A stretch of DNA of 64,000 nucleotides from Coprococcus eutactus. GTDB taxonomy: Bacteria; Bacillota; Clostridia; Lachnospirales; Lachnospiraceae. Each line of letters starts with the position of its first letter. Position 1 is the first letter of the stretch. The notes under the pieces were generated by a model. It saw nothing but the letters and a program-made list of their open reading frames with translations, was not told the origin of the DNA and searched no databases. The stretch spans positions 1,876,001 through 1,940,000 of the forward strand of contig NZ_CP102278.1 of NCBI RefSeq assembly GCF_025149915.1, written 5' to 3'. The translations under genes were made by a program, and so were the position numbers. This document shows, one piece after another, positions 1,832-43,877 of this stretch.

Positions 1832-4800
1832 AACGCAATCCACGCTCCGGCAAACGGAGCGACAGAAGACCAGCATCAAGCCACGGAAGTACATCCAATT
1901 TCAATCAACGCTCTGACAAACGGAGCAACTGCAATAAAGAACTTGCAGATGACCTTATCGACAAATTTCAATCCACGCTCCGGCGAACGGAGCGACGATC
2001 AAGCTTATGACTTATGAGAGAGACACAGAATTTCAATCCACGCTCCGGCGAACGGAGCGACACCAACCATTCCTGCCATCTGTGCAGCAATCTGATGATT
2101 TCAATCCACGCTCCGGCGAACGGAGCGACATTGTATGACGTGCTTATTAAGATAAGACCAAACATTTCAATCCACGCTCCGGCGAACGGAGCGACCTGCA
2201 CAAACCGAGAGCCACGGAGCAAGAACGCAATTTCAATCCACGCTCCGGCGAACGGAGCGACAGCGTGGACTTACACTAAAGACGGTAAGAATACAGATTT
2301 CAATCCACGCTCCGGCGAACGGGGCGACCAGCATCCCATGTGTTAAGAAATCCAGTTATTGAAATTTCAATCCACGCTCCGGCGAACGGAGCGACGACTT
2401 TTATGCTTTTTCGTGGGTTTATGCTAATATTTCAATCCACGCTCCGGCGAACGGAGCAACGATATTTACCATTACAACAAACAGGATCTTCTAAAATTTC
2501 AATCCACGCTCCGGCGAACGGAGCGACTCGTTATAGTTTCAGTGTCAGAACGTTTAGGAAAATTTCAATCCACGCTCCGGCGAACGGAGCGACGTGCAGA
2601 GTAAAGCTATTTTTGGTGACTGTTATGTATTTCAATCCACGCTCCGGCGAACGGAGCGACCATACACAATCTTGGATGGAGCTGGTGTGACATGGGTATT
2701 TCAATCCACGCTCCGGCGAACGGAGCGACACAACATCCATTAAACAATTCTCAAGTGCATCTTATTTCAATCCACGCTCCGGCGAACGGAGCGACTAGCT
2801 GTGCCATAGTTCTGTGATGCCGCATTAGCATTTCAATCCACGCTCCGGCGAACGGAGCGACATCATGCCGGTGATAATCTCTATAGATATGAATATTTCA
2901 ATCCACGCTCCGGCGAACAGAGCGACTGGAAATACTCATCAGCCGTGTACCCGGCCTCAGCATTTCAATCCACGCTCCGGCGAACGGAGCGACCGTCTTC
3001 CGTCGTCTTAACTGTTGGAATATTTGTATTTCAATCCACGCTCCGGCGAACGGAGCGACTATGCCTTGTATTTTATATTCTCATCCTCATCAAATTTCAA
3101 TCCACGCTCCGGCGAACGGAGCGACTAACTCAAGAAAATCATAGCAGAAAAGGGGAAGAATTTCAATCCACGCTCCGGCGAACGGAGCGACTACATGTGA
3201 TTTCTACTATCAGCGCATTGAAACATTTCAATCCACGCTCCGGCGAACGGAGCGACTGTGGTATACCATTTATTTCCTCCTACAAAAAAATTTCAATCCA
3301 CGCTCCGGCGAACGGAGCGACGTGTCCACTTGGGCGGTTCATTCGCTTTGCCATATTTCAATCCACGCTCCGGCGAACGGAGCGACCTCCAGCTTATCAA
3401 AGAGTATAGAGAATTTAACATTTCAATCCACGCTCCGGCGAACGGAGCGACTTTAATAAATATGACGGTCTCCCGGTCTGGAACATTTCAATCCACGCTC
3501 CGGCGAACGGAGCGACTTATTCAGGCAGGTGAAAGCGGGCTTACAATTAAAATTTCAATCCACGCTCCGGCGAACGGAGCGACCCATAATCATGATCACA
3601 GTAATCAATTAAAGATATTTCAATCCACGCTCCGGCGAACGGAGCGACATTATGCAGGAAGTGCTTGACGGCACTAATGTGCGAAATTTCAATCCACGCT
3701 CCGGCGAACGGAGCGACCACATGAATATGGTCATTATTTCGATACTAAAGCAATTTCAATCCACGCTCCGGCGAACGGAGCGACGACGTACACAGATTAC
3801 TATTATGCGGATGAATTTAAATTTCAATCCACGCTCCGGCGAACGGAGCGACTTCTTCCAGTTACGACCTTTTTCCTGAGTTGGAGATTTCAATCCACGC
3901 TCCGGCGAACGGAGCGACACGTTGATTTTCCGTTATTTCCCATTCCGTACAAATTTCAATCCACGCTCCGGCGAACGGAGCGACTGCCTGTATTGCCATT
4001 CTATAAGCACTTTCAAAAATTTCAATCCACGCTCCGGCGAACGGAGCGACCTTTTTGCTGTGCCCTAGTGTGGACAAGCACACAATTTCAATCCACGCTC
4101 CGGCGAACGGAGCGACACAAGTTTTATTTCATCCCTGAATAATTCCTCCATTTCAATCCACGCTCCGGCGAACGGAGCGACGATTAACGCCATCTGCTGT
4201 GCTGAAATCAATATTGGAATTTCAATCCACGCTCCGGCGAACGGAGCGACGCTAGAGAAGTATCAGCATCTCCTATTATAATTATTTCAATCCACGCTCC
4301 GGCGAACGGAGCGACAAAAATGTGTAAATTACCTTACAATGTATATCAGTATTTCAATCCACGCTCCGGCGAACGGAGCGACTGTATAATTCCGGATGAT
4401 GTAAAAGCTCTGCTTTATTTCAATCCACGCTCCGGCGAACGGAGCGACATTCTTTATACAAAATATCAAGCTGTTCAATAAATTTCAATCCACGCTCCGG
4501 CGAACGGAGCGACCTACCCTTTTCGATATCTCCGCCCATCTTGATAGAATTTCAATCCACGCTCCGGCGAACGGAGCGACCGGGCGTACGCTGTGGCTCA
4601 CACATACACAAATTTCAATCCACGCTCCGGCGAACGGAGCGACCATTTCTCGCCTCCTTCACCCTGCAGATGTGCTATTTCAATCCACGCTCCGGCGAAC
4701 GGAGCGACAATTGTTACAAGCTCGGCCTTATTGTCCTTAAAATTTCAATCCACGCTCCGGCGAACGGAGCGACTTCTTGATCTTAAGCGCATTCTCATGC

Positions 4801-6693
4801 ATCATCAGATTTCAATCCACGCTCCGGCGAACGGAGCGACTTAATTCTCCGTCCTTATTTTCATCTTTATCATGCAATTTCAATCCACGCTCCGGCGAAC
4901 GGAGCGACTTTTTAAAATCTGTCAATATCCTTGATACTGTACATTTCAATCCACGCTCCGGCGAACGGAGCGACTCCAGAAGATGTACTATCACCATTAC
5001 CACCAGACATTTCAATCCACGCTCCGGCGAACGGAGCGACAATTTCCTTTGTCAAACGGACTCTCTTCATCAATATTTCAATCCACGCTCCGGCGAACGG
5101 AGCGACTAGCATAATCCCACTTAAAAGTTCTAACATCTGACATTTCAATCCACGCTCCGGCGAACGGAGCGACGCATTTCTGCCTCACCTATGGTCATTC
5201 CCTCACGATTTCAATCCACGCTCCGGCGAACGGAGCGACAGGCTATCAATGCTGACACTGTAGCTGGTATGCAATTTCAATCCACGCTCCGGCGAACGGA
5301 GCGACAGCCAAACACCGTTATATTGTCCCCTAAATCGGGATTTCAATCCACGCTCCGGCGAACGGAGCGACGTAGGTGAGGGTGATGAAGGTATCACCCG
5401 GACTATTTCAATCCACGCTCCGGCGAACGGAGCGACGGATTCAATCTGTAAGTGGTTCGGTATCACATCATTTCAATCCACGCTCCGGCGAACGGAGCGA
5501 CCAAAGGAACCCACTTTGGCATGGATTGTTTGAAAATTTCAATCCACGCTCCGGCGAACGGAGCGACAGGAATTTGTTAGGGTAAATGCTACAGATAACC
5601 TACAATTTCAATCCACGCTCCGGCGAACGGAGCGACCTTTGTCACAGTCAAAGCCAAGATCTTTAATGTATTTCAATCCACGCTCCGGCGAACGGAGCGA
5701 CGTTGAAAGATATAGTCGATTACTATTTTGATGACATTTCAATCCACGCTCCGGCGAACGGAGCGACGGTCACAATGTTGAATGGACCTTATTATTCATT
5801 CATTTCAATCCACGCTCCGGCGAACGGAGCGACGCGGAATTAAATGACGCGATGGCGCAAGTGGGCATTTCAATCCACGCTCCGGCGAACGGAGCGACTT
5901 ATTGCTCGGCCTGCTGCAAAAAACACACTGATATTTCAATCCACGCTCCGGCGAACGGAGCGACGATAATATCTCATGTTTTTATACCTCCTTAACAATA
6001 TTTCAATCCACGCTCCGGCGAACGGAGCGACCCTCAGTTGCTTTGACAATACAAAAATCAAAAGATTTCAATCCACGCTCCGGCGAACGGAGCGACACAT
6101 GCAGATGGGGCAAGACGCATATATGCAGAGCATTTCAATCCACGCTCCGGCGAACGGAGCGACATATCAGACAAAGCTAACCCGGTTTGAACTGCTAATT
6201 TCAATCCACGCTCCGGCGAACGGAGCGACGCAAAATCGGGTTATTTAGCAGTGCGCAATTATATTTCAATCCACGCTCCGGCGAACGGAGCGACGGTAAA
6301 CACTCTATAAACCGTCCTTATTACATTCCAATTTCAATCCACGCTCCGGCGAACGGAGCGACGCAAGCTCTATATAAAAATGACACCGCTTACAATATTT
6401 CAATCCACGCTCCGGCGAACGGAGCGACTTATTAACACAATAAAGACTTCCAGTGATCTGACATTTCAATCCACGCTCCGGCGAACGGAGCGACACCTGC
6501 ACTTGCACGCTTTTGCACTCTCACCTTATTTCAATCCACGCTCCGGCGAACGGAGCGACTATCATAACAAGTTGTAAGCCTTTTTAATCCATAATTTCAA
6601 TCCACGCTCCGGCGAACGGAGCGACGTAAAATCCGGGGAGATCACAATTGATGAGCTTGGCATTTCAATCCACGCTCCGGCGAACGGAGCGAC
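1832..6693 (-). CRISPR. Type I-C CRISPR array, 74 repeats and 73 spacers
   Basis: I counted 74 copies of a 32-base repeat separated by spacers of about 33-37 bases. On the minus strand the repeat begins GTCGCTCCG and ends GCGTGGATTGAAAT. It holds a 7-bp stem (CGCTCCG/CGGAGCG) followed directly by an 11-base UGGAUUGAAAU, the 5' handle expected after Cas5c processing. This is the repeat type of subtype I-C. Transcription is inferred leftward: the handle lies at the repeat 3' end on the minus strand, cas2 and an A/T-rich leader flank the 6693 side, and the first two repeats on the far side (1832, 1898) are degenerate. Single-base variants occur in the repeats at 2297, 2429 and 2895. The remaining copies look identical. 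Open frames across this region that repeat SIHAPANGAT or SLRSPERGLK are artefacts of the repeat. Confidence 0.98.
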
Positions 6694-6868: not shown

Positions 6869-7159
6869 TCAAAAAATTAATGGCTGATCAACATCTATCC
6901 CCTTATCACATCCTATATGATCAACTTTAGTTTGATATTTACTTCCCAAATAATAAAACCTGAGACTGTCCACTGTATCATCAATTATTTCAGACAACAA
7001 GGCTTTCAATTTAACGCTCTGTGCTTGGTCCACTATACATTCGAAAACTGAATTCTGTACTCGTCGGCCATAATTTTCACATTGTTTTGCAACCTTTCTC
7101 AATCTATTTTTTCCTGCAGATGTTTCCGTATTAACATCATAGGTTATCAATAATAACAT
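6869..7159 (-). CDS. cas2: CRISPR-associated endoribonuclease Cas2
   Basis: The 96-residue protein starts MLLLITYDVNT, the ferredoxin-like first strand of Cas2 with its conserved aspartate. It continues with RRVQNSVFECIV and LRFYYLG, typical of the subtype I-C form. A longer frame extends upstream, but AGGTGATAAG directly before this ATG and the family length decide the start. Cas2 dimers bridge two Cas1 dimers to form the spacer-integration complex; nuclease activity is dispensable for that role. The gene is last in the cas operon, 10 bases after cas1 and next to the leader. Confidence 0.96.
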   Translation of the reverse strand: MLLLITYDVNTETSAGKNRLRKVAKQCENYGRRVQNSVFECIVDQAQSVKLKALLSEIIDDTVDSLRFYYLGSKYQTKVDHIGCDKGIDVDQPLIF

Positions 7160-7169
7160 TCTTATCACC

Positions 7170-8201
7170 TCATTTCCACAAAAAAACAGGGTATCCATCA
7201 ATATCCCCTCGGAGATATCTTGCCAAAAGCATTGTCTGAACATATGGCACTATTCCCCACTCAACCTTTTCCTTCAAATATGGATGTGTAATTACTTCTT
7301 TCTTTTTATTTTGCCACTCCACCAATACCTTTTTTCTTGCATTATCACTTAGTAATACTGCCCCATTTTCTTTTTTAGAAAAATCCTTTCCTGTTATTAT
7401 CCTTTTATTTATAAGTGACAGAACAAACCTATCTGCATAAACCGCTCTAAATTCCTCAATTAAATCTAACGCCAACGAAGCCCTGCCAGGTCTATCCGTA
7501 TGTAAATACCCTATATACGGATCCAACCCTACAACTTCCAAGGCCGATGCAATCTGATTGGTCAATAATGTATAAACAAATGACAGCATAGCATTTATAT
7601 TATCTTGAGGAGGTCGTTTATTTCTTACTTGAAACACAAAATCTCTTTTTTGCTGTAATATAAGCTCATTGAACACCCCAAAATAAATACTTGCCGCCTC
7701 TCCCTCATATCCTCTTAATTCATCATTTGACTTAGCACCTCTTATTAATTCCAAGGAATTTTTTAAATGTAATGATGCGCGTTTCACCCGTTCCGCATCT
7801 ATCTGCATCGCATGATCCCTAATAGCCCTCTCCAAAACCCATCGTGCATTATATACTTTACCCAATATACAACTTTTGGAAATCTCTAGGCTTTTTTCTG
7901 CATCTAATGAGCTATCATATTGTTGTCTCCGCAAAATAACATTTCCCTTTACTTTTCCCGTTATACGAGCTAGAAATTTTCCTTGAGGAGTTACATAACA
8001 TAATGAAATATTCCGATCTGCACATGCGCCCATAAGTGCCGGACTTGTTCCTTTATACCCAAACACAACTATCCCATCCAAATTATGCAAAGGCAATCGG
8101 CCAATCTCTAGGCTATCTTGATATACTACAACAGTTTCTCCTTCTAACCCCAAATAACCATTTTCAGATGTTACATAAAGTGTATTTAATAATTTTTTCA
8201 T
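7170..8201 (-). CDS. cas1: CRISPR-associated endonuclease/integrase Cas1 (type I-C)
   Basis: At 343 residues it has the length of Cas1c. The N-terminal beta domain includes the motif GYKGTSPALM near residue 50. The alpha-helical catalytic domain shows the metal ligands: Glu near 166 (LRGYEGEAA), His near 234 (GYLHTDRPGR) and acidic residues near 245-250 (LALDLIEEFR). Cas1 with Cas2 inserts new spacers at the leader end of the array. The ATG overlaps the end of cas4 by four bases, so translation is probably coupled. All residues expected for activity are present, which fits the long array with intact leader-proximal repeats. Confidence 0.97.
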   Translation of the reverse strand: MKKLLNTLYVTSENGYLGLEGETVVVYQDSLEIGRLPLHNLDGIVVFGYKGTSPALMGACADRNISLCYVTPQGKFLARITGKVKGNVILRRQQYDSSLDAEKSLEISKSCILGKVYNARWVLERAIRDHAMQIDAERVKRASLHLKNSLELIRGAKSNDELRGYEGEAASIYFGVFNELILQQKRDFVFQVRNKRPPQDNINAMLSFVYTLLTNQIASALEVVGLDPYIGYLHTDRPGRASLALDLIEEFRAVYADRFVLSLINKRIITGKDFSKKENGAVLLSDNARKKVLVEWQNKKKEVITHPYLKEKVEWGIVPYVQTMLLARYLRGDIDGYPVFLWK

Positions 8202-8863
8202 TCAACATTATCTCCTAACATCTGTGATATATAATTTTTTACTGATCCAGCTTTATTTAATCTTGGCAAACAAATGTCTTTCAATGAGCAAGAATTACAT
8301 GATTTGCTTTGTTTTACCTTGGGAGTATACCCTCTCTTAAAATAATCATGCATCTCTTCAAACATTTTAGTTGCCATATCTCTTAGCTCCTGAGAAACCT
8401 GCACAACTTCTCTTCTTCTTGTTTCTCCATAATATATTGCGCCCTCTTCTATTTGTGTAGAAAACATCTCCTCTAGGGCCATTGTCTGTACTACTAATTG
8501 AAGTTTATCCTCCTCCGACACCTTGGGCTTTCCTTTTTTATACTCAATTGGATATATGCTATATAATCCACGATGCCCACGTAGAGAAACTCCATCATCA
8601 CACTTATGGAACTCAACAATATCACACTCCCCTACTGCACCCAGTTTCCTGGATGCAATTGGAAGTGCTCTCACTATAAGTACATCTTTTCTCTTCTCCG
8701 TAATATATGGATCATGAGCTTTCTTATGCATAAGCTCACCTACTGCAGTATGATAATTTTCAGACCACTGCTGCTCTATATGTATGAGTGCCCATTGGCG
8801 TCTGCAAAACTTAAAATGCTGTATACCAGATATCATCAAATACTCTTCTTCTGCGTACTCCAT
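8198..8863 (-). CDS. cas4: CRISPR-associated exonuclease Cas4
   Basis: The 221-residue protein carries the Cas4 iron-sulfur cysteines, one in FCRRQW near residue 20 and three in CNSCSLKDIC near the C terminus. It also has RecB-type nuclease motifs, GECDIVEF and PIEYKKGK. Cas4 joins Cas1-Cas2 in type I-C systems to trim prespacers and select those with the correct PAM. It overlaps cas7 by one base and cas1 by four. All expected catalytic and cluster residues are visible, so it should be functional. Confidence 0.95.
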   Translation of the reverse strand: MEYAEEEYLMISGIQHFKFCRRQWALIHIEQQWSENYHTAVGELMHKKAHDPYITEKRKDVLIVRALPIASRKLGAVGECDIVEFHKCDDGVSLRGHRGLYSIYPIEYKKGKPKVSEEDKLQLVVQTMALEEMFSTQIEEGAIYYGETRRREVVQVSQELRDMATKMFEEMHDYFKRGYTPKVKQSKSCNSCSLKDICLPRLNKAGSVKNYISQMLGDNVE

Positions 8864-9774
8864 TAAACCATCCTTTTTACCTCTACTGAGTCTGGAATAT
8901 TATCATTATGTATCTCTACAATATAATCCTGATATCTTCTTGGATATTCAATACCATCCATCTTCTTAACTTCAACAGAATCAAACAACTTATATGCTGG
9001 ACAATCACCAAGTTCTTTACTGTGCTTAAATACTATCAACTCACGCACAGCCATCTTGCCTCTAGCGGCAGAATGATCATTTTCAAACATATTGATAAGT
9101 GCATCCCATAGTAAATCAAGATCCTCTTCTGAAAATCCCGTTACCTTTCTTGCAAGATTTGCTGATATATATCCCTCCAAACGATATAACCCATATGGTA
9201 CAATACTTTTTCTTCCCATCTCTGTACTCTTGTTTTCAGCATCCTTTTCAGTTGTAATTGCAACTCTGGTAATTGTAACTTCCTGACTGATAATTGGATC
9301 TATGCTCCTAGCAAATCCTAACTGTACCGGTCCCCTGACCTGTCCGCAATTCAATGAGGCTTTAACAAACGTAGTCATAACTGCTCCAAATGTCCTAATA
9401 TCATAAAAATTCTCGCACATATAATCTCTCAATTTTCTATCAACATCTGGATCTGACTTTTTTAATTTCTTTATTTCTTCCGTAAGTTTTTTGTCTTCAG
9501 TCTCCTCAACCCCTAAACTTTTACAAGCATTTCTGTCACTCTTATTTAATGGCACATCCTCTTTTATATATATTCCATATCCCTTTTCATCTTCTTTAAC
9601 AGTTTCAACATAATTACGTATTTTCCGTTTTATACAAACATCTGTAACCAAACCCAATCCACTCTCAGGATCAATTCTTGGCATATTGCCAGCATCAGGA
9701 TCTCCATTTGGATTTCCATTCTCAACATCAAATAACACTACAAATTCATATCTGTTTTTTATTACATCACCCAT
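8863..9774 (-). CDS. cas7: Type I-C Cascade backbone protein Cas7 (Csd2)
   Basis: The 303-residue protein starts with the hallmark of Csd2/Cas7c (FVVLFDVENGNPNGDPDAGN) and continues with TDVCIKRKIRNYV. FGAVM and GQVRGPVQLGFARSIDPI follow in the RAMP fold. Several copies line the crRNA spacer in Cascade and flip out every sixth base, which matters for the regulatory RNA at 12300. It starts directly after the cas8c stop codon (no gap) and overlaps the cas4 start by one base. Confidence 0.96.
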   Translation of the reverse strand: MGDVIKNRYEFVVLFDVENGNPNGDPDAGNMPRIDPESGLGLVTDVCIKRKIRNYVETVKEDEKGYGIYIKEDVPLNKSDRNACKSLGVEETEDKKLTEEIKKLKKSDPDVDRKLRDYMCENFYDIRTFGAVMTTFVKASLNCGQVRGPVQLGFARSIDPIISQEVTITRVAITTEKDAENKSTEMGRKSIVPYGLYRLEGYISANLARKVTGFSEEDLDLLWDALINMFENDHSAARGKMAVRELIVFKHSKELGDCPAYKLFDSVEVKKMDGIEYPRRYQDYIVEIHNDNIPDSVEVKRMV

Positions 9775-12197
<2,423 letters not shown>

Positions 12198-12216
12198 TTA
12201 AATATATTGTATTTCT

Positions 12217-12245
12217 ATAATAACGCATTGTGATACGTATAGCAA
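12217..12245 (-). promoter_or_regulatory. Predicted promoter of the cas5c-cas2 operon
   Basis: On the minus strand TTGCTA (12245-12240) and TATTAT (12222-12217) are separated by exactly 17 bases, about 40 bases upstream of cas5c. This is the best sigma-A-type match in the gap. The -35 box lies at protospacer positions 22-27 of the sequence matched by the crRNA-like element at 12324. Confidence 0.7.
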
Positions 12246-12249
12246 TACA

Positions 12250-12269
12250 ATATTTAAAACATTATTGAA
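12250..12269 (-). promoter_or_regulatory. Predicted Cascade target: TTC PAM plus seed match in the cas promoter
   Basis: On the minus strand TTC (12269-12267) is followed by AATAATGTTTTAAATAT (12266-12250). The spacer-like segment on the + strand from 12324 reads AATAAGGTTTTCAATAT. Fifteen of 17 positions agree, and the two differences are at positions 6 and 12. Position 18 is the next difference, and after it the match breaks down. Type I Cascade ignores every sixth base, so the match is effectively perfect for 17 positions beside the correct type I-C PAM. Confidence 0.8.
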
Positions 12270-12293
12270 ATTTATTATATTTTTATATATACT
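12265..12293 (+). promoter_or_regulatory. Predicted promoter of the crRNA-like RNA
   Basis: TTGAAA (12265-12270), a 17-base spacer and TATACT (12288-12293) make a strong sigma-A-type promoter on the + strand, opposite to the cas genes. Its -35 box is the complement of the TTC motif and first seed bases of the Cascade target, so binding there would also block this promoter. Confidence 0.75.
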
Positions 12294-12299
12294 AAACGT

Positions 12300-12392
12300 G
12301 TCTGTTTTACAGTGGATTGAAATAATAAGGTTTTCAATATGATTACCTGATGCGGTGGATATTTATATACCCACCGCATTTCATTTATTTAT
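12300..12392 (+). ncRNA. Candidate crRNA-like cas-regulating RNA (CreR-like)
   Basis: The predicted transcript starts near 12300. It forms a short hairpin (CTGT/ACAG) directly followed by TGGATTGAAAT (12313-12323), the exact 11-base handle of the array repeat. The hairpin sequence differs from the repeat, but its position relative to the handle is kept, so Cas5c could process it. A spacer-like segment follows from 12324 and matches the cas5c promoter at 12250-12266. The transcript ends in a hairpin (TGCGGTGG/CCACCGCA, 12351-12378) with a T-rich tail that overlaps the cas3 stop codon. Regulatory RNAs of this kind (degenerate mini-CRISPRs guiding Cascade to cas promoters, called CreR) are known from other CRISPR types. 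The assignment here is inference from sequence; transcription and processing are not shown. Confidence 0.75.
12350..12390 (+). terminator. Terminator hairpin shared by the crRNA-like RNA and the cas3 3' end
   Basis: A perfect 9-bp stem (ATGCGGTGG/CCACCGCAT) is followed on the + strand by TTCATTTATTTAT. It would end the + strand RNA. On the minus strand it lies immediately after cas3 but lacks a good T-run in that direction. Confidence 0.55.
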
Positions 12393-14530
12393 AAAAATAT
12401 CGCATCCCCCTCATCTACCAAGCAAACTAAACCACATTCTTCTGAGTAGTATTCCATTGATGTCAATTCATAAAAATCTCGCACATCATCTGAAACGAGG
12501 CGTATTATTCCTGCATCATACAATTTCTGAAATTCTGATTTTTCACCACAATAAACCTGAACACAAAACTGTCCTGCTTTTCGCATTCTTTCTTTTGATA
12601 TGCCTTTTAGCTTTATCTCATCCATCAACTCTTTTGCCTCATCTGTATTACCGACAAAAATTGTTGCCATATCCTGCTCAATTATTTTAAACTCTTTTCC
12701 GACCTTTGCATAATTATACTCAGGATGAACAAACTCACCTAAAATTTTCTTCTTATCAAGGCCATCGCCCCTGAAATGATACAGTCTCTTAAAATAATCT
12801 GATATACACTCTGGACTATCTACTATTTCATAATCACATAATACAGACTTAGCAACCTCAATCTGTTGTTTTTGATTTAACGGAATCCTGCAATTCTCAA
12901 TATCAAAAATATTAACTATACTCTCAGCTTGATTTCTTTTTCCCTCTCTATTGCATCTACCTGCAGCTTGTATAATAGAATCTATTCCTGCAATCTGACG
13001 ATACACATGCTTAAAGTCTAAATCCACCCCTGCCTCGACTAAACTTGTTGATACTACGACACATTTTTCTCCATTCTGCAAACACTTTCTTATTTTTTTC
13101 AAAACAATTTTTCTATGCAATGGGTACATATTTGTTGATAGATGAAACACTCCTATTCCACATAGTTCCATATAAATATCTTGAGCCATTCTCTTCGTAT
13201 TTACGATACACAAAGCACAATCTTCATCTTTTAGCATACTTGTCAATTTATCTCTCGATATTGTTCCGATGTTATTGTATTTAACTCTCTTAAAATATCC
13301 AAATTGTTCATGCATCCTTGGACATAGTTCCATAAATTGTGTGTTTTCTGGAAATAATGAACCTAACGCTGGCTGTGTCGCCGTGCATAATACTATACTT
13401 GATCTATATCTAATTACTAGTTCGCTAATCATATAAATACAAGGTTTCAGATAATCAGTCGGCAACATCTGTGCCTCATCAAATATAATGACACTATTTG
13501 CTATATTATGTAATTTCCTGCATTTTGAAGATTTATTTGAGAATAACGACTCAAAAAACTGAACATTCGTTGTAACTACAATGGGTTTATCCCAATTTTC
13601 ACTAGCCAATTGCATTGGCTCAAAATCTTCTCGTCCATCATAATCTACATTACAATGATTTTCCAAAACGTTCTGTTCTCCAAGTATGTCCCTGAACACC
13701 TGCGCATTCTGCTCTATAATACTGGTATATGGAATTACATATATTACACGATCCATATCATTTTCTACTGCATGTTTTAGTGCAAATGCAAGTGATGCAA
13801 TAGTCTTTCCTCCCCCAGTTGGAACTGTTAGTCTAAAATAGCCTTTTTCATTCTGCCCTTCATTTAAACAATGTTTTAATATTTCTGTTCTACGTCCATT
13901 TATCGATTCTGTATTATCATTTTTCAACCATCTACTAATATGTGTTTCAAGTTTGCTCAATAATATCTTTACATTTTCCCCTGAGTTTCTATTAACATCC
14001 CCATTTTTCATAAAATACTCAGTATCAAGGAAATCTGCATCAACCAAACACGAATAAATCATTCTAAGAAAAACGCTTAAAGGAAAATCTGCATCTGAAA
14101 GATTCTGTAATATAATTGGATCTGTTTTCAATTCAGGAATCTCTATTTCATATTTATACGAACTATAATCATATATCTTTTTCTTTTCACATCTATACCT
14201 TAAACTTGAATGAATAACTGTATTTCCATAATCTGGTAACCCAGCATGGTGTCCTGCTATACAATAGCTTAATAACTGATAATACCCCCCCAATTCCATA
14301 CATAGTTTTGCACCTGCTGTGGAATGATCGACTTTATCATCTGTGTTATTAATTATTTTATTTTGAAACTGCTTTGAATATTTACCAATGTCATGCAATA
14401 ATCCACAACAATATCCCCAGTCTGCTTTTCCAAACTTATCAGCAAATTGAGCTGTTAACCTTGCTGTTCCTATCAGATGATCCTTAACACTTTGTTCTGA
14501 AACACCATTTATATGTGCAATATATTTCAC
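12389..14530 (-). CDS. cas3: CRISPR-associated helicase-nuclease Cas3 (type I-C)
   Basis: At 713 residues it fuses an N-terminal HD nuclease to a superfamily 2 helicase. HD residues are visible at 46-47 (GLLHDIGKYSKQF) and further histidines in CIAGHHAGLPD. The helicase has Walker A near 236-243 (VPTGGGKTIAS), the DEAQ box near 351 (IIFDEAQMLPTDY) and motif VI near the arginines of AAGRCNREGKRN. Cas3 is recruited by target-bound Cascade and degrades DNA. The start codon is GTG at 14530 with AGGGGGAT upstream; no in-frame ATG lies nearby. cas3 has its own promoter and is separated from cas5c by 209 bases that hold the crRNA-like element. Confidence 0.96.
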   Translation of the reverse strand: MKYIAHINGVSEQSVKDHLIGTARLTAQFADKFGKADWGYCCGLLHDIGKYSKQFQNKIINNTDDKVDHSTAGAKLCMELGGYYQLLSYCIAGHHAGLPDYGNTVIHSSLRYRCEKKKIYDYSSYKYEIEIPELKTDPIILQNLSDADFPLSVFLRMIYSCLVDADFLDTEYFMKNGDVNRNSGENVKILLSKLETHISRWLKNDNTESINGRRTEILKHCLNEGQNEKGYFRLTVPTGGGKTIASLAFALKHAVENDMDRVIYVIPYTSIIEQNAQVFRDILGEQNVLENHCNVDYDGREDFEPMQLASENWDKPIVVTTNVQFFESLFSNKSSKCRKLHNIANSVIIFDEAQMLPTDYLKPCIYMISELVIRYRSSIVLCTATQPALGSLFPENTQFMELCPRMHEQFGYFKRVKYNNIGTISRDKLTSMLKDEDCALCIVNTKRMAQDIYMELCGIGVFHLSTNMYPLHRKIVLKKIRKCLQNGEKCVVVSTSLVEAGVDLDFKHVYRQIAGIDSIIQAAGRCNREGKRNQAESIVNIFDIENCRIPLNQKQQIEVAKSVLCDYEIVDSPECISDYFKRLYHFRGDGLDKKKILGEFVHPEYNYAKVGKEFKIIEQDMATIFVGNTDEAKELMDEIKLKGISKERMRKAGQFCVQVYCGEKSEFQKLYDAGIIRLVSDDVRDFYELTSMEYYSEECGLVCLVDEGDAIFL

Positions 14531-14762: not shown

Positions 14763-15434
14763 TCAAGCCCCAACTCCGTTCCACGCTGAGAAGTCTATCA
14801 AACTTCCTATGCTCGAGGTCAGTTCTTCATGATTGAATGCCTCCAGCACACTCTTCATTGTCTTGGCAAATCTTTTCTCGTCCTTTGTGAGTGCCAGAAG
14901 ATATGCGGTGTTTCTGGCATCACAGCAAGCGTCATGCTTCTGACCTGCGAAGTCTATACCTGCATAATCCACCGCCTGGGATAAAGTAATGATCCTTCCA
15001 ATGCCAACCAGATCGCTGAATTCCTTCTGGAAGTCATGCCACTGTCTGAATACCTTGTCTACATCTTCTTTCCACGGTATGTTCTTCAGCTTCATTTCTC
15101 TGCGAAGCTGAAGTTCATCAGAATCGCTCCAGCCATACATGACCACTTCTTCTCCGAAACTAATGCACCACTTTATGAAAGCGTCAAATGCGTCTGCAAA
15201 CACAGGACTATCCTGAAGCTTATCCATGGTTATTCCCGTGAGCTTCTCAACCTTTTTTACCACCTTTTCGTTGAACTGCGGTTTTACATACATCTTAAAT
15301 GCGCCTATTTCCTCGAATTTTTCATTCATGGTAACGGCTCCGATCTCTATCACCTCATTGGTGCTTATCTTTCTCTCATTTTCATATTTGAAGTCCAACC
15401 AGTTCATCTCAAGATCTACAACTATATGTACCAT
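14763..15434 (-). CDS. DEDDh 3'-5' exonuclease family protein
   Basis: About 223 residues. The start is placed at the ATG at 15434 (MVHIVVDLEMNW) because GGAAAGGAGC precedes it; a longer frame would add nine residues without a ribosome site. The exonuclease motifs are visible: DLEM (Exo I), a middle part with FVKWC-like helix and MYGWSDSDELQL (Exo II region), and KHDACCDARNTAYLL (Exo III with the DEDDh histidine and aspartate). The family includes KapD, Eri1-type and DnaQ-like enzymes that trim DNA or RNA from the 3' end. The close spacing of IEIGAV after the first motif resembles the KapD/ERI branch. The substrate is not known. Confidence 0.8.
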   Translation of the reverse strand: MVHIVVDLEMNWLDFKYENERKISTNEVIEIGAVTMNEKFEEIGAFKMYVKPQFNEKVVKKVEKLTGITMDKLQDSPVFADAFDAFIKWCISFGEEVVMYGWSDSDELQLRREMKLKNIPWKEDVDKVFRQWHDFQKEFSDLVGIGRIITLSQAVDYAGIDFAGQKHDACCDARNTAYLLALTKDEKRFAKTMKSVLEAFNHEELTSSIGSLIDFSAWNGVGA

Positions 15435-15535
15435 TTTTGCTCCTTTCCGACACCGTATCATATTTTTTCACAATCCTAACTTTTCTCTTATGCAATTCTA
15501 CCTCATTCAGTGTACTATTTTTTTCACACCGGGGT

Positions 15536-15627: not shown

Positions 15628-17934
15628 CTATCGGCCAAACTTTTCAAGAGCCGTCCCAATCTTCAGATTTCTCTCAGTTGCCATCTTGTCAAACTTTATG
15701 ACATAGCAGCCTATATCTGTCCGCATAGCTGTTATAGTGCCCTCTCCAAATACTTTATGCATCACACGGTCACCCACTGAAAGTTCCGTATCCGAAGGGC
15801 ATATCCTGGATTCATTTGCCGCTATGTAGCTCATAGCATCGTCCACCAGTCTTTTAGGGAGATCATGTGCATAGTCTATCACGTCACGGTCTATATTGAA
15901 GATGAATCTGGATGGATACCGGAAAGACTCATCATAGTTCAACCCCTCGGCATCACTGATATACAGAGCCTTCTCCGCTCTAGTGAATGCCACATACGCC
16001 ATTCGTCTTTCTTCCTCTAGGCGTTCCTCTGTATCCACATGCTTACTTGGAAATATCCCCTCATTCATCCCGCACACGAACACATAAGGGAATTCCAATC
16101 CCTTTGCCGTGTGAACTGTCATCATGGACACTGTCTCTTTGTCTTTTTCACGGTCATTGTTCGTGTAGAGCGCGATGCTCTGGAGATATTCCTCCAGGGT
16201 ATTCTCTTCACCTGATGTCTTCTCGTATTCATCTACAGACTGCTTGAATTCCGCCAGATTATCCAGACGCTCCTGCTCACCCGACTGTCTGAGCATCGCC
16301 TCATACCCGGTCTGATCCAGTACCTCCGTCACCAGATCTGACAGACTCTTTTCCTTATAGGTCTTCTTGAACGCCTCTATGGTATCCACAAATGCTGCAG
16401 CCCCAGTTGACTTGATCGTTTTATCCTCCAGAATGTCCAGGAGGCCGTTATACAGTGAACATCTGTGACTCTCCGCGTATGCCTTTACGAGAGCCATTCG
16501 TTTCTTGCCGAAGTTGCGCTTTGGCTCATTGATCACGCGGCGAAATGACAGATCGTCCGAATAGACTATCATTCTGAGATATGCAAGTACATCCTTTATC
16601 TCTTTTCTTTTATAAAACTCCATTCCACTGTACAGTGTATACGGAATCTTTGCCTTGATGAACGACTCCTCTATATTTCTCGATACAAAATGAGATCTGT
16701 ACAGCACCGCCATCTCGTTGTACGATGCACCTTCTGAAACCAGTCTCTGTATCTCCGAGGTCATCCACTGAGCCTCATCCCCGGTCGTCCTGGAATGTAT
16801 ATATATAGGTCTTCTGCCCGACTCCTTATACGCCTCAAGCCTGTGCGGAAGCCTCTTCTTGTTCTTCTCTATGAGCGAGTTGGACACAGCAAGTATCTCT
16901 GGTGTTGATCTGTAATTCATATCAAGGAATATGGTTCTGGTATTCTCATGTGTCTCGTCAAATTCAAGTATGTATTCTATCTGTGCCCCGCGCCATGTAT
17001 ATATGGTCTGATCCGGATCTCCCACTATGAACAGATTCCTGTGATATCCACTGAGAATCTCTGCCAGCGCATACTGACTGTTGCTCACATCCTGAAATTC
17101 ATCCACCATGACATACATCATCCGCTCCTGCCATTTGATCCGCTTCGTTTCATCTGTCTGAAGTATATACAATGCAATCGTTATGAGATCGTCATAGTCA
17201 AGCCCATACACCTTCTTCTGCTCATACAGATATCCTAGGAATACCTTATCCTCCACCTTCTCTGCCTTCTCATAGTCTGCAAGAAGTTTTTCGTTCCCTA
17301 TCTCCGCAAGATACGGTATATGCAGCATCTGACTTTTCAGGGCTGTTATATGATCTCTCGCAGAGTCAAATGTATATGTTCTCGACTGTATATGTGCATT
17401 CTCATACACAGTCTTGAGTATCTCCTCTGTATCTTCGTCATCCATAACAACGAAGTTCTGTGGGAAGTTGATCGCATGTATGTCTTCCCTCAGCAGCTTC
17501 ACACAGAATCCATGAAATGTACAGATATAGCCAGTATCACTGTCACCTATCATCTGTCTTATCCTCTTGCTCATCTCCCTGGCTGCCTTGTTCGTAAATG
17601 TGACACACAATATATTCGAAGTTGATATTCCCAGCTCATTGACAAGGTATGCATACCTATGAGTAAGCGCCTTCGTCTTGCCGGTCCCCGCACCTGCAAT
17701 GATCCTCACGTATCCTTCTGTGGTTGTAACAGCATCAAGCTGCCTCTCATTGAGTGTGCTCAGATAATTCTCTTTATCTTCCATTCTGTTATCTTTCATC
17801 CCGTTATCTTCCATCCTGTTATCTTGAATCCTGTTATCTTGAATCCTGTTATCTTCCATCCCACTATCTCCCATCCTGTTATCTATCATAAAATCTTTAA
17901 TATTATCTTTCTTATAATCTTCTCTAAAATCCAA
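15628..17934 (-). CDS. pcrA: ATP-dependent DNA helicase, UvrD/PcrA type
   Basis: This superfamily 1A helicase unwinds DNA 3' to 5' in repair and in removing bound proteins. Visible motifs are the Q-motif LNERQLDAV, Walker A near residue 80 (AGAGTGKTKALTHR), Walker B VDEFQDVSNSQ, GDPDQTIYTWRGA, VSMMTVHTAKGLEF and VAFTRAEKAL. A C-terminal VMHKVFGEGTI segment matches the Tudor-like RNA polymerase-binding domain of PcrA. The length (about 768) is normal except for the first ~55 residues. These are a run of five-residue units of the form Met-Glu-Asp-Asn-Arg that most PcrA proteins lack. The leftmost start is a TTG with no clear ribosome site. An ATG within the repeat, preceded by GGGAGATAGTGG, is an alternative, so the true N terminus is uncertain. 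Confidence 0.92.
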   Translation of the reverse strand: MDFREDYKKDNIKDFMIDNRMGDSGMEDNRIQDNRIQDNRMEDNGMKDNRMEDKENYLSTLNERQLDAVTTTEGYVRIIAGAGTGKTKALTHRYAYLVNELGISTSNILCVTFTNKAAREMSKRIRQMIGDSDTGYICTFHGFCVKLLREDIHAINFPQNFVVMDDEDTEEILKTVYENAHIQSRTYTFDSARDHITALKSQMLHIPYLAEIGNEKLLADYEKAEKVEDKVFLGYLYEQKKVYGLDYDDLITIALYILQTDETKRIKWQERMMYVMVDEFQDVSNSQYALAEILSGYHRNLFIVGDPDQTIYTWRGAQIEYILEFDETHENTRTIFLDMNYRSTPEILAVSNSLIEKNKKRLPHRLEAYKESGRRPIYIHSRTTGDEAQWMTSEIQRLVSEGASYNEMAVLYRSHFVSRNIEESFIKAKIPYTLYSGMEFYKRKEIKDVLAYLRMIVYSDDLSFRRVINEPKRNFGKKRMALVKAYAESHRCSLYNGLLDILEDKTIKSTGAAAFVDTIEAFKKTYKEKSLSDLVTEVLDQTGYEAMLRQSGEQERLDNLAEFKQSVDEYEKTSGEENTLEEYLQSIALYTNNDREKDKETVSMMTVHTAKGLEFPYVFVCGMNEGIFPSKHVDTEERLEEERRMAYVAFTRAEKALYISDAEGLNYDESFRYPSRFIFNIDRDVIDYAHDLPKRLVDDAMSYIAANESRICPSDTELSVGDRVMHKVFGEGTITAMRTDIGCYVIKFDKMATERNLKIGTALEKFGR
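17774..17889 (-). repeat. 15-bp tandem repeat at the 5' end of pcrA
   Basis: About seven or eight degenerate copies of a 15-base unit (minus strand ATGGAAGATAACAGG) encode pentapeptides such as MEDNR, IQDNR and MKDNR. Each unit carries a possible ATG or ATA start codon. Such repeats change copy number by slippage, and 15-base steps keep the frame. Confidence 0.8.
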
Positions 17935-18124: not shown

Positions 18125-21100
18125 TTAATACTTTTTATATATCGCATTCTTTGGCGCTGCCACACCCTTTGCCTTAATCTTAGCCATATATGACTTATAG
18201 TATTTCTTTGGTATCTTGAATGTTATCTTTGACTTTGTACCCTTGAATGCATTCTTTGATACAGTCTTGAGTTTTGCCGAACCAACTTTGACAGTGGCAA
18301 GGCTCTTGCAGCCGCTGAATGCTGATGCACCTATAGTCTTAACATTTGCGCCAATTGAGACTGCTGTCATCTTGCTGCATCCGCCGAATGCACTCTCTCC
18401 TATGGTTGTCACCTTTCCGCCAACAGTCAGTGTCTTAAGTGATGTGCAGCCATAGAAAGCGGCCTTGCCTATGGTTTTAAGCTTATTATTTACCGGCATT
18501 GCTGTGAGCGACTTACATTTATAGAATGCATAACCACCTATGGCTGTAACATTCTTGAATGCCGGAATAGTCTTGAGTGCTGTACATCCGCTGAATGCAT
18601 ATGTTCCTACAGAGACAACATTTGCACCTCCAGCAACCTTGACAATACTCTTGTAGTCCTTGAATGCTTTGCTGCCTATAGCTGTAACTTTAAATTTCAC
18701 TCCGTCTATAGTTACAGTATCACTGATCGTAAGTATCTTGAACTTTCCATTGGTCTTGGCAACTGTTGTGCCTATAAGTCCTACAGTTCCCTTGCCCTTC
18801 AGATCAGCATTTGTAATCTTGTACTTGTATACTATGTTAGTTCCTGGCTGCTTTACTGCAAATACAGAATTCCTTACTATCTTGATCTGGAATGTCTCTG
18901 TGATAGTTCCTCTGTATTTTCCGATACCATTTATTGTAACCGTTGCAGTGCCATGTTTTTTATTGTTCGAATATGCTACCGTGTAATCAGTACCCTTTCT
19001 TAGAACCGTTCTGCCCGATGTAACTTTCAGATTCTTTAGGGTAATTGTGCTTCCAGTATATTTCTGAGGATCAAGTCCGGATACCTTTATCTTGTATTTT
19101 GGATTAGTGATATCCCTGCCAAGTGCCGGGATCGGCACAGTCTTCACATATCCGCAGACCTTACACTTATATACCTTGCTTCCGGCTGCTGTATCAGTAG
19201 GACTTGTCTTTATGCTTCCTGAGTCGAATGTATGCCTTGCCTTATTCTGGATATCCTTGCAGCTGCATTCCTTCCAGTGATATGTAGCATTGCTCTTGTA
19301 TGCATCGCCATAATCATGTACATGTTCTTTGATGATTTCAACCTGTACTGGGAATACCACACCTCTGTAAGCTCTGTTCCAACCCTCTACTCCTGACCAG
19401 TCATAGTTAGTTATATCAGCAGGCTTAAAGCACAGCTTGTATGTTCCGCCATCTTCAGCCTTTGTTGTTCTGTCTGTGTACCATGTGTAGATTCCATTCT
19501 CTGCCTCCGGAAGTACTATATCAGCCAGAGTGTCATTTTCTTTTGCTGTGAGCTTGTCTATAGCCTGTGTGAACTTAGCCTCAGCCGGCTTTATCTCAAC
19601 TGTGATCTCTATATGCTCTGCTCTTTCATATACATCCTCATCAGATGGCACAAATGTTGCAAGGAACTTCTTTGTTCCAACGTCGCCGACTGACTCATCA
19701 GCATTTTCCCAGATGAACATTCCGCCTTCTGCTTCTGGAATAACAGCCTTTCCTACAGTTTCTCCATATATAGCTGTCACTCCCTCAGGTACAGTGTATA
19801 CAGGATCCTGCTTTCTCACATATACCGCAAGCTTCACTGATATTCTGACACTGCCGTCCTCTAACTGCTCATACGTTCCTGAGGCAGTATCAAACTTGCT
19901 CCAGTCATAGTTGACTGTATCTTTCGGTACAAAGTATGCATCGTAATTGTCTTCGGATCCAGCCTTGCCAACCAACTGTGTGCTGTCTGCCCAGCTATAT
20001 ACACCAAGTACTGACTTTGGAAGTGCTACATCAGCAAGTGTTTTGCCTGCATATGCGGTTCCGGCCTTTGATGCAGCAAGTGTCGGGATACCCTTCTCTA
20101 TCTTCTCTATGGTAAGCGTGAATTCAGCTGTGGTCTGGTTCTGTCCTCTCACAATGATATTCACTGTCTGAGCCTCAGCAGAAGCCTTGACCGGAGTACC
20201 GTATATCTTGCCGCCTGACATCGCAAGTCCATCAGGAAGGGTCTGCCCCTTAGCAAGTGAGTATGCGACATAGCCGTTTTCAACATTCTCATCATTCTGA
20301 ACCTCGATCTTTGTGAGGTCATAGAGTGGATCAAACTTGCTAGTTGTCACTCCAACCTGTGCTGTAACCTTGTCCTCAGCCTTCGCAAGAGTTATATTGG
20401 TTGCTTCCTGCTTTGCCATATTGATCACAGCATGTGTCGGCTCATATGCCACTGTTCCGCGCCACTTGACATTGTTACTTGACGTTGCCTCATTCTGTGC
20501 TGAACCATATACCACAGAATCTATCTTCATTCCGTCTATCGGTTCGCCGTCAACTGTCACATAGAAATCCATATTTCCAGCTATGTATACATTTGTATCA
20601 CCGTCAATGCCTGACGTCTTCTGATAGTTAGCATTTGTTGCCGCTATGCTTATCTTTGCATCCTCACCCTTGAAGCAGTATGCCGGATACTCTGCATCAA
20701 CTTTATAGTACACACTGCTGTAATTTTTCAGCACATACTTAAGATTCGGAATCGTTGTTGTGAGTACCTTTCCAACATCCGAGAAGTTGTTATAATATGT
20801 CTCTTCCAGAGAACCATAATTTACTATGATTCCACTGTTGACCATATTTCCGAATGTAAATGTAGCAGCTTCACGGTTGATGAACATTGAAGAAGCATTG
20901 ATCCTTGTACTGTATGACCTGTCAGAAACCGTTGTGACGGTTCCATAGTTGTCAACTTTACCGCTGATACTTGATGCGCTGCTGTCACCAACGTACATAT
21001 ACTTCTTTGTATTCCAGATTCCATTGTTGACAAATGTTCCCTCTACATAAACATTGCCCTCTGAGGTCCATGTTCCGTTATTCTCAATATCTCCTTCGAT

Positions 21101-24100
21101 GACAGCATTTGCTGTATGCTTAATTGATGCACCCTCAGCAACTTTGATCTTTGAACCAGAAGTTACATTGAGGATATCAGTCTCAATGTTCTCATCAACA
21201 GTGTATGTACCGCCGAGGACAAGTTTATCATTGAGTTTTAAGAAGAGTGAGCCATTATGTGTCACCTGGAAATTCTCTGAAAGTCCTTTAACACTCGCAG
21301 TGGTATTGCCACTGACATCATTGAAATAAATATCATTTACCTCTCCGCTTGCAGCAAGAACGATCTTACCGCTCACGATACCTTCTGTAGCCGATCTTAC
21401 ATTTATATTGCGTATCTTATTGTTCGTATTGCCGTATACGAATGCTTTTGAACCATCATTTGAATTGGCGCAGCTTATATAACCTGATTTCAGCTCAGCA
21501 TTCAGATCTCCATCCACATTAGAACTATTTACAAATGTATTTGTTCTTCCTGCATACCATTCACCATTCAGAGTGTAATTTACATCTCCTGACACAGGTG
21601 TCCTGTGAACTCCGTAGAAGAAAGCGTACGTGCTTCTATACATCTTTGAACTATAGGCAAATGCCTCTCTTGTACTCAACACGCCTACCTCTGCATTTAC
21701 ATCTCCAGATACACTTCCTCCGCTTATGACATACAATTCTTCCTTACCTGTGCTTGAATAATTGTCGTCTGCATACATCATAGCTGTCTTTGTGAATGCA
21801 AAATTCATCGTCTGAACATCTGAATTATATGCGCCATAGGCCTTCTTATATATCTTTCCGCCTTCTGCAATGAAATTCACCGCAGCAGCATGTACATTAT
21901 ATGCACCATATATTTCTGTTCTTACAGTGCCGCCCAGCACCTTTACAGTAATATCACCCTCAACAGTTACATTTGCAGCTCCGGACTCGTTTGAACCTGC
22001 ACCATACAGGGAACCTACCGTACCGCTTCTGAGAACTATTGATATATCGCCAGTATATGCATTGTCTCCATCTGTATAACCATATATCTTGCACTTCGAC
22101 AGGTCGTAACTTGTCTCACCACCTATCTTAAGTGCTCTGTTGTTGTCTGCTATTCCGTCATGGTCTGCATCCATGTATATGGAAGACTTTGATGCATTTG
22201 ACGGATCAGCTATTATCACAACTGAACTTCCAGCAAGATTTATCTTACTTACGGATGCGTCAGTTACCACTTTGTTGATATCGGACACTTCCGTGCCGGC
22301 AGCCTTTACTGTAAACTTTACGTTTACATCAACGGATGTTCCATTTCTTCCTGTCACAACAAATGTCACATCTGTTTCACCTGTTTCGGATGTCTTGCCT
22401 GTTATCTTGCCATCAGCAAGCACAAGTCCCTCCGGAAGCTTTGATCCGCTCTTTACTCTGTACTGCATATCTGTACCGTATGATGAAGTGGTGTCTCCTG
22501 TCACATCAAGTGCTGTGAGATCATATACAGGTTCCTCGGCTGTATAGCTTGTATCTGCTACGATCACAGGATCAGCATATTTCTTTGTCACTGCGATCTG
22601 ATCTGCCACGTAATCAGCAGTTGCGCTCATAACTGTATTTGCTGTTGCGACCAGCGCCGATCCCGAATCTCCCTTTATTGGATCTCCGCCATTTATCGAT
22701 ACATATACTGTGTATCCCGGTACATCTGTATACTTTGCCGTGACTAAAGAATTGTTTCTTGCATATATCAGTCCCTCGTATTCCACTACCCTGCTCTGAG
22801 TTGGAATGGAAACCGAAGTTCCCTTCATATTCGTAGTACCGCGTTCAACATTGTAGTAGATTCCGGCCCACTCGCCTGCATCTACATCTTCTGCAAATTC
22901 TCCTGCCTTTACCCATGTTCCCTCATTTGAGAACTTGTCTGAAGGGCACTTGAATGTTCCTTTCTGATATACTTTTGCCCAGCTGTCTGATATCTTGACT
23001 TCATCTGTCTCAAACTCCGACTCTGCCCCTATAATAAGTACATTATTGTAACTCGTCATATACAGAGTATTTATCTTGACATCTCCATCAAACTGAGCAG
23101 ACGAATTTCTCGAGAATGAAAGACTGCCGGCGGTAATCGCAGCCGTTGCTGTAAGCTTAGATTTTTCATACATCCTCAGATATCCTGTGAGCTCAAGCGG
23201 AGCCTCCACTGATACTTCAGATTCATTGTCCAAATCAAAATCATTTGCAGCAAGCTTCTCTGTAACTGTATACTTCTTGTATATCATGATATTGTCTTTT
23301 GCTGTTCTGAGAAGCGCTCCTGTGTATGTTGATGTACTTCCACTTACCAAACCACCTGTGATTACTGCACCTGTGCAGTTCTCATAAGAGATCGTACCAT
23401 CTACCTGGGTATTTACAATCGCATATACCTCACCCACATTACCGCCTTTGATAACTACCGCAACCGCATCTCTTCCGCTGAAGCTCAGTTCTGAGTCAAC
23501 CGCACCATATATCTTCTTTACGCTTCCTCCCAGCATAGTTATCTTTACACTGCGCTTAAATTCGCTGTCATCAACTCCAACCACAGTGTATTCTGACAGG
23601 TCTCCGCTGACTAATGGTGTCTTGTTGTCAGCCTGTCCATCCTTGTTAGAATCGATATAGATCTCTGTGATCACAGGACTTTCAGCCCCTGTTTCATCCG
23701 ACGAAGCTTCCGCACTGTTCTCTGCAGCCTGCAATACAACTGATGTTCCATTCAGACTTATCTGTTTATTCTCTTCATCGACTGTTATACGTCCGTCTGT
23801 ATTGTCCTGTATCTTCTGCTCTTTCGAAACAACAACATTTAGCGTGATCTGTGTCCTTGTTCCATTCTTTCCTGTTATATAGATTACTGCTTTCTTTCCA
23901 TCCTCATATGCCGAGGTCGGTGTTCCAATTATAAGACCGCCATCAAGCTCAAGCCCCTCCGGAAGTATATAATCCTTGTCCATCTCATAGGTAACTTTGC
24001 CCTCTTTGCCATCATTCAGGATCACAACATCCGACATATCATACAGAGGTTTTTCTGCTGTGTATTTCTGACCGAGCACAGCTGAAGGATCTGACACTGT

Positions 24101-26944: not shown

Positions 26945-27019
26945 CAATTACCCTCCCTGATAAAACTTTTGTGACCCTTCGTGATACATCTGTATGCTAT
27001 ATTTTGTGCACTATAACAC

Positions 27020-43680: not shown

Positions 43681-43707
43681 ATATTATATTCTCCTTACGA
43701 TATTATA

Positions 43708-43877
43708 GTGCAGACGCATTAGAGGCGCTTCGCGCGGCGTCTGCTTCATCGTAAGAAATCTCCCACCTTGCGGCGGGTCCTTCTTACGATTAATGTGCAG
43801 ACGCATTAGAGGCGCTTCGCGCGGCGTCTGCTTCATCGTAAGAAATCTCCCACCTTGCGGCGGGTCCTTCTTACGAT
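43708..43877. repeat. 87-bp tandem duplicated palindromic element
   Basis: The 83 bases at 43708-43790 are repeated exactly at 43795-43877. Each unit contains two stems: GCAGACGC/GCGTCTGC around a GCGCTTCGCGC-like centre, and TCGTAAGAA/TTCTTACGA around a GC-rich loop. The second copy runs into the last codons of rnfB, so the rnfB stop lies within the element. The element is much more G+C-rich than its flanks. An open frame across it (repeating KKDPPQGGRF) is not a gene. Confidence 0.9.

Follow-up and report, generated by a model that had tools for sequence, protein, structure and literature searches.

CreR is a crRNA-like RNA that directs a Cas effector to the effector's own promoter (Liu et al. 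2023, Cell Host Microbe, as described in excerpts of the reviews PMC12737573 and PMC13131331). According to the same excerpts, CreR is titrated by array crRNAs and by anti-CRISPRs, and it is named there for the subtypes I-B, I-E and V-A. CreA of the CreTA systems of I-B haloarchaea carries one or more degenerate repeats, uses a TTC PAM and matches its target promoter in part; one-repeat and two-repeat forms are described (PMC9458426, excerpt). A protein toxin described as acting on FtsZ is kept down by the Cas effector in CrePA (Shu et al., Nat Chem Biol; excerpt of PMC12737573). The scaRNA of Francisella Cas9 combines a degenerate repeat with 15-bp guide complementarity, which leads to repression (excerpt of PMC9458426). 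Racr RNA anti-CRISPRs are of viral origin and are built on a solitary repeat (PMC10651486, excerpt).

In this report, a device of this kind is described for a type I-C locus of Coprococcus eutactus. The window, i.e. the whole stretch of DNA that was analysed, comprises 64,000 nt. Judged by its sequence, the region of about 12299–12385 on the plus strand very probably encodes a CreR, that is, a guide RNA that would be loaded into Cascade and would repress the cas5c–cas2 promoter. A literature search found no CreR in type I-C; Liu et al. 2023 and Shu et al. 2024 may list I-C cases.

The type I-C locus and a candidate guide RNA gene

The genome of the window consists of one contig of 3.11 Mb. A complete type I-C locus is located on the minus strand of the window in the order cas3, a 209-nt gap, cas5c-cas8c-cas7-cas4-cas1-cas2 and a 74-repeat array (Table 1). 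The subtype is indicated by this gene set, with cas3, cas5c, cas8c, cas7, cas4, cas1 and cas2 all present, together with the GTGGATTGAAA-ending repeat. In type I-C, Cas5c takes the place of Cas6. The cas3 gene lies upstream of the guide RNA gene and is therefore not behind the targeted promoter. Immediately upstream of cas3, a gene for an RNase_T-type (DnaQ-like) exonuclease is found (14763–15461, minus strand). The window also contains a 2,940-aa open reading frame (18125–26947, minus strand), a 15-nt tandem repeat of 7.4 copies (17774–17884) and a tandem duplication of 87 nt (43694–43879).

The first 24 nt of the array spacers have no match with up to 3 mismatches in the rest of the window. 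Comparison of the array with phages gave no match, so that a PAM is not derivable from the array spacers. Five of the 73 spacers were compared with viral contigs, again without a match, and hence yield no PAM either.

Table 1. Coordinates of the features discussed (window positions unless a relative is named)
Feature	Position	Strand	Remarks
CRISPR array	1832..6693	-	74 repeats (<=7 mismatches), 73 spacers; repeat GTCGCTCCGTTCGCCGGAGCGTGGATTGAAAT
cas2	6869..7243	-	TIGR01573
cas1 (type I-C)	7170..8201	-	TIGR03640
cas4	8198..8863	-	TIGR00372
cas7/csd2	8863..9774	-	TIGR02589
cas8c/csd1	9775..11520	-	TIGR01863
cas5c	11517..12179	-	TIGR01876; gene 1 of the putatively controlled operon
cas5-cas2 operon promoter (predicted)	12217..12245	-	TTGCTA (12245-12240), 17 nt, TATTAT (12222-12217)
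Target (protospacer-like)	12233..12266	-	read from 12266 downward; 15/15 outside positions 6 and 12
PAM TTC	12267..12269	-	within the guide RNA's own -35
Guide RNA promoter (predicted)	12265..12293	+	TTGAAA (12265-12270), 17 nt, TATACT (12288-12293)
Mini-hairpin CTGT-TTT-ACAG	12302..12312	+	ends exactly at the handle; replaces the repeat stem
5' handle, 11 nt, TGGATTGAAAT	12313..12323	+	same as the handle of the array repeats
Guide	12324..12349	+	positions 1-17 (12324-12340) are the target-matching part
Terminator-like hairpin ATGCGGTGG...CCACCGCAT	12350..12379	+	GC-rich; T-rich tail to about 12390
cas3	12389..14530	-	TIGR01587, TIGR01596
X1-X2 pair, examples in relatives	L053 7069-7975; L064 6991-7981; L040 7108-7999

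The candidate guide RNA gene is located in the gap between cas3 and cas5c (12180–12388). Exact copies of the handle sequence GTGGATTGAAAT in the 3.11-Mb genome number 72 on the minus strand, all of them within the array, and 1 on the plus strand; the latter, at 12312–12323, is the sole one outside the array. As in CreR, a crRNA-like gene with a repeat-derived handle is thus found outside the array and inside the cas locus. Its promoter (10/12; score 14.1) is the best of 6 promoter-like pairs in 12150–12420, where 2.1 such sites are expected by chance in a strict consensus scan. Transcription would start near 12299–12301. The 4-bp stem of the mini-hairpin preceding the handle does not form in the minimum-energy fold predicted for the RNA by itself. 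The guide is followed by the terminator-like hairpin, and there is no second repeat after it. The stricter consensus scan does not list this terminator; under a looser rule it reaches 15.3, which exceeds all 304 shuffles. The promoters of the operon and of the guide RNA point apart, and the target reaches across the −35 elements of both.

The original prediction was that the orphan guide matches the cas operon promoter beside a TTC, with interruptions at positions 6, 12 and 18 and a fading match thereafter. Alignment of the guide (from 12324) with the minus strand from 12266 confirmed this. Positions 1–5, 7–11 and 13–17 are identical (15/15 over positions 1–17 without 6 and 12), positions 6, 12 and 18 differ, and TTC directly precedes the match at 12269–12267. 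Position 19 differs as well, and positions 18–34 are at background in the window and in its relatives. The −35 element TTGCTA of the cas operon indeed corresponds to guide positions 22–27, with TATTAT 17 nt further. Since guide positions 18–34 do not match above background, it would be the body of the complex, not an R-loop, that covers this element.

The match was also said to exceed chance, and none of 20,000 dinucleotide shuffles of 12180–12311 scores 15/15; any 15 of the 17 positions match in 9/20,000. A chance match was rejected on the former count. Among the 2,557 TTC sites of the window, the second best reaches 11/15. A genome-wide search for the target with its TTC (positions 1–17, any base at 6 and 12) that allowed up to 2 mismatches gave this single site. 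As is characteristic of CreR, the guide thus matches its own cas promoter in part, with a PAM adjacent to the match.

Distribution in relatives and a gene pair behind the promoter

Related loci were obtained from a family search with cas5c (84/397 genomes matched; the best 30 loci were used), from genome contigs (best 80 of 248; mostly Lachnospiraceae and other Clostridia) and from one viral-contig cas5 locus, which ends before the gap. In all, 111 loci including the window were scanned; L010, a copy of the window, was omitted, and some genomes are present in both genome sources. In a handle-first scan of 564 handle candidates, 42 pairs scored at least 12/15; one of these 42 is an array repeat. 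In the control with random guides, 12/4,269 reached the threshold. When an offset of 1 nt was allowed, the device was found in 44/108 loci, window included (44/2,017 handle candidates versus 15/6,463 random guides). The non-redundant set consists of 38 devices, i.e. the window and 37 relatives in related I-C loci. In all 38, the device is encoded on the strand opposite to cas5.

The main scan found no device in 64/108 loci, of which a few were recovered by other scans or by eye; some contigs among the device-negative loci are incomplete. Inspection of 19 gaps by eye showed 10 without a device (L042, L048, L050, L057, L069, L071, L082, L114, the incomplete L060, and L075, of which the first 700 of 1,009 nt were covered). 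In L018 the device was judged by eye to be present with weak pairing. Many loci, mostly with cas3 abutting cas5, seem to be without the device, which thus appears to be dispensable. In L066, CRISPR repeats are located between cas3 and cas5, at about −400 to −60 relative to cas5.

Within the genus, cas5c was found in 1/5 genomes, namely that of the window. An order-wide Cas5d search (30 loci) revealed a device within 1.5 kb in two loci, the window and L175. Among 40 order- and phylum-wide cas5 hits, with up to 4.8 kb upstream covered, 5 carry a device and 35 do not. Three of the device-bearing loci (L223, L225 and L228) belong to the same family as the window, L225 being the genome of L175, and two (L236 and L240) belong to other classes of the phylum. 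The guide of L228 repeats that of L070. With the loosely defined handles of this wide search, 5/907 candidates pass and 5/2,399 in the random-guide control; this rate is little above the control, so that the claim relies on the exact or near-exact handles of the five loci. In L223 and L240 the device stands before a cas3-sized open reading frame (812 and 838 aa, respectively, assigned by size alone). The device of L240 (1764–1781) is the sole one seen running with the operon.

In 24 dereplicated I-C relatives with cas3 in view, a pair of overlapping genes, X1 and X2, is located upstream of cas5. Table 1 gives examples of the pair. In three pairs that were scanned, X1 corresponds to DUF3990 (E about 1e-51) and to the PADLOC candidate PDC-M10A, and X2 corresponds to PDC-M10B; all further pairs were recognised by tblastn. 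DUF3990 is listed in the ART clan of Pfam (PMC7955679, excerpt). The structural model of X1 (pLDDT 78.7) is nearest to an Xre-RES toxin, with a weak best E of 1.1e-3, followed by other ART domains. The model of X2 is helical, and a fold search with it gave no useful match. Sequence searches of solved structures with X1 and X2 yielded nothing useful. The pair is often found apart from cas5: within about 1.5 kb on each side of X2 in 30 loci (L120–L149), cas5 is in view in 7 and not in 23. A literature search found no DUF3990 in a cas operon.

The guide RNA is present in 22/24 of the pair-bearing relatives; the scan found it in 20, and in the other 2 it was assigned by eye or by a strict scan. 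The target of the RNA lies 36–203 nt before X1 in 18/20 relatives with a scanned RNA; in the remaining two, L045 and L056, it is more than 2 kb away from the pair. X1 is degraded in L051. In L019/L082, where no guide RNA was found, the beginning of the X1 open frame lacks a start codon. In L050, by contrast, the pair is intact and no RNA was detected either. Among the loci without the pair, 21/62 carry the guide RNA, window included (4 judged from other scans). Of the 41 loci with neither pair nor RNA, 30 have a cas3–cas5 gap of less than 120 nt.

The frequency of the RNA beside the pair, the short distance from target to X1, the ART-clan assignment of DUF3990 and the resemblance of the X1 model to RES toxins all favor an antitoxin-type CreA. 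Such an RNA would restrain a toxin gene, and loss of Cascade would harm the cell, according to the logic of CreTA and CrePA. However, no gene is present between target and cas5 in the window, its genome has no match to X2, and the RNA is also carried by loci without the pair. As an explanation of the device, an antitoxin is thus improbable.

The DUF3990 pair is a possible CRISPR-repressed toxin module in about 20 relatives and is absent from the window. For these relatives we tentatively suggest, with somewhat less than even confidence, that one CreR-silenced promoter drives the DUF3990–PDC-M10B pair and then cas5–cas2. The effector would in this way be restrained together with a pair that is a candidate for a toxin or for abortive infection, and an anti-CRISPR that removes Cascade would raise both. 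If this is true, the logic of CreR and that of CrePA are joined in one operon of subtype I-C, and the window represents a variant from which the pair was lost or in which it was never present.

Guide–target pairing and predicted RNA structure

Pairing was counted in the 30 of the 38 devices without an indel. Selection of the devices had used positions 1–5, 7–10 and 13–17, and positions 11, 6, 12 and 18 were unselected. Each of the positions 1–5 matches in 30/30. Positions 7, 8, 9, 10 and 11 match in 29, 27, 28, 30 and 29 of 30, and positions 13, 14, 15, 16 and 17 in 24, 28, 29, 28 and 26 of 30, respectively. The skipped positions 6, 12 and 18 match in 7/30, 4/30 and 7/30, so that the high count at the unselected position 11 stands against low counts at 6 and 12. 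From position 19 to 34, 3 to 12 of 30 match, which equals the background. Pairing that leaves every sixth base free fits the geometry of Cascade given in the original prediction, in which each sixth crRNA base is flipped out. A term search of two I-C structure papers found no statement on an every-sixth-base geometry. Eight of the 38 devices (L044, L051, L067, L017, L070, L072, L083 and L022) lie outside the simple pairing rule and have a 1-nt difference in length between guide and target near positions 11–13, as if an indel were tolerated at the skipped base.

The skip phase was also found by a scan that made no use of the handle. Handle-preceded pairs occur in 28 loci if positions 6 and 12 are ignored and in 4–8 loci for the other five phases (arrays masked, L084 with its tandem repeats excluded, array-like repeats of L109 kept among the non-handle pairs). 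A PAM-free search gave 50 matches from 223 handle candidates. TTC precedes the target in 19/19 cases at score 14, in 23/24 at 13 and in 0/7 at 12. For targets scoring 13 or 14 this corresponds to 38/39 (2.5% expected), a count that leaves out four loci originally picked by a TTC search.

The guides have diverged between loci (53% mean pairwise identity over 17 nt). On average, a guide scores 13.4 of 14 against its own promoter versus 8.2 against the targets of other loci, and 57/1,406 cross-locus comparisons of guide and target score 12 or more. A difference between related guides at a paired position is mirrored by both targets in 401/453 comparisons, and a difference at positions 6, 12 or 18 in 2/232; these comparisons stem from 124 locus pairs that are not independent, and the paired positions were mostly part of the selection. 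Co-variation in relatives had been set beforehand as the check on which the original prediction should stand or fall. The outcome was in favor of it, as the guides diverge and their own targets still match. Co-evolution of guide and target is expected of a working device and is not a published criterion for CreR.

The handle directly follows a stem of >=4 bp in 30/38 devices versus 18.5% of shuffles. The letters of this stem vary (CAGG/CCTG, CAGA/TCTG, CTGG/CCAG, CTGT/ACAG), unlike the array stems of the same loci. A terminator-like hairpin is found in 33/38 devices versus 46/304 shuffles and 35/152 random places. With a score of at least 12, these numbers are 29/38, 0/304 and 5/152, respectively. 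The hairpin begins at guide position 21–36 (median 27), and no second handle was found behind the guide in any of the 38 devices. In 26/31 plus-strand targets, compared to 13.6% of random placements, the best predicted −35 of the operon follows 23–44 nt downstream of the PAM. The footprint overlaps the predicted operon promoter in 25/38 devices and the guide RNA's own promoter in 9/38.

A single degenerate repeat with only 17 paired nucleotides could also be the dead remnant of a CRISPR repeat–spacer unit with a leftover self-match. The joint change of guide and target, the maintained PAM, the period-6 phase, the terminator-like hairpin and the constant placement in 38 devices argue against it. 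The dead repeat was rejected on guide–target co-variation and is highly unlikely. The same low probability is assigned to a decoy that would sequester Cas proteins, as do the Racr RNA anti-CRISPRs of phages. A lone repeat with a correct handle would suit a decoy, which requires neither the position inside the cas locus nor a guide that matches the cas promoter. Operators often take the form of direct repeats in front of an operon, but a protein operator formed by the paired bases at the DNA level, rejected on the skip-phase scan, is hardly conceivable, as one copy follows the handle and the other follows TTC.

Proposed mechanism and relation to known systems

The proposed CreR would have three parts: a single I-C repeat in degenerate form, which contributes the hairpin and the 11-nt handle, a guide that is effective over its first 17 nt, and a terminator-like hairpin that replaces the second repeat. 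Presumably, the RNA is trimmed by Cas5c and loaded into type I-C Cascade. The complex would locate the TTC and pair with the three blocks of the target, skipping each sixth base. Pairing would end at about position 17, too short for an attack by Cas3, and Cascade would stay on the DNA. This step is supported by a type I-B system, in which a spacer shortened to 24 nt led to repression of the target without interference or priming (PMC10989794, excerpt). The bound Cascade may then block the promoter of cas5-cas8c-cas7-cas4-cas1-cas2 and act as repressor of its own operon. RNA polymerase reading through from cas3 would nevertheless run into the bound complex. In the window, the target site covers the RNA's own −35, and the guide RNA should therefore limit its own supply. 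If the CreR model of the reviews applies here, additional array crRNAs or an anti-CRISPR would divert Cascade, and cas expression would rise.

If this mechanism is true, RNA-guided Cas autorepression extends to type I-C and is common among the nearest relatives of the window. The natural set of guides and targets would show which bases evolution keeps: three 5-nt blocks with free sixth bases and a stop at 17. Repression without cutting could be designed directly from this pattern, and what separates binding from Cas3 licensing would become accessible to experiment. Whether cells punish anti-CRISPRs via the cas promoter could be examined concretely with the ART-clan pair placed under this RNA.

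The CreR of Liu et al. reportedly has a mini-CRISPR layout with a second repeat, which may not be required. The two-repeat layout is not found in the 38 devices, and the device of the window overlaps its own promoter. All other CreR features examined are present, and the device is therefore filed as a CreR in subtype I-C, in a single-repeat, terminator-ended variant. The missing second repeat is treated as a variation of the layout, since creA, which is related, occurs with one or two repeats (PMC9458426).

The solitary repeat is shared with Racr, which, unlike the device of the window, has no need for a promoter-matching guide. The scaRNA, as described in PMC9458426, differs by its type II system, by Cas9 and by its targets. 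The logic of CrePA, in the excerpt considered, is near that of the relatives with the DUF3990 pair, a putative toxin, whereas the window is without such a gene. With CreA, as excerpted, the device shares the degenerate repeat, the TTC PAM and a promoter that is matched in part. What CreA represses is a toxin RNA, whereas the first gene behind the target in the window is cas5c and not a toxin gene as in CreTA and CrePA. CreR is generally uncoupled from a toxin gene (PMC12737573, excerpt), which holds for the window and not for about 20 relatives. Like the CreR of the review excerpts, which is named there for I-B, I-E and V-A, the device of the window, in subtype I-C, would use a crRNA-like RNA, complementary to the cas promoter to a limited extent, to turn the effector into an autorepressor.
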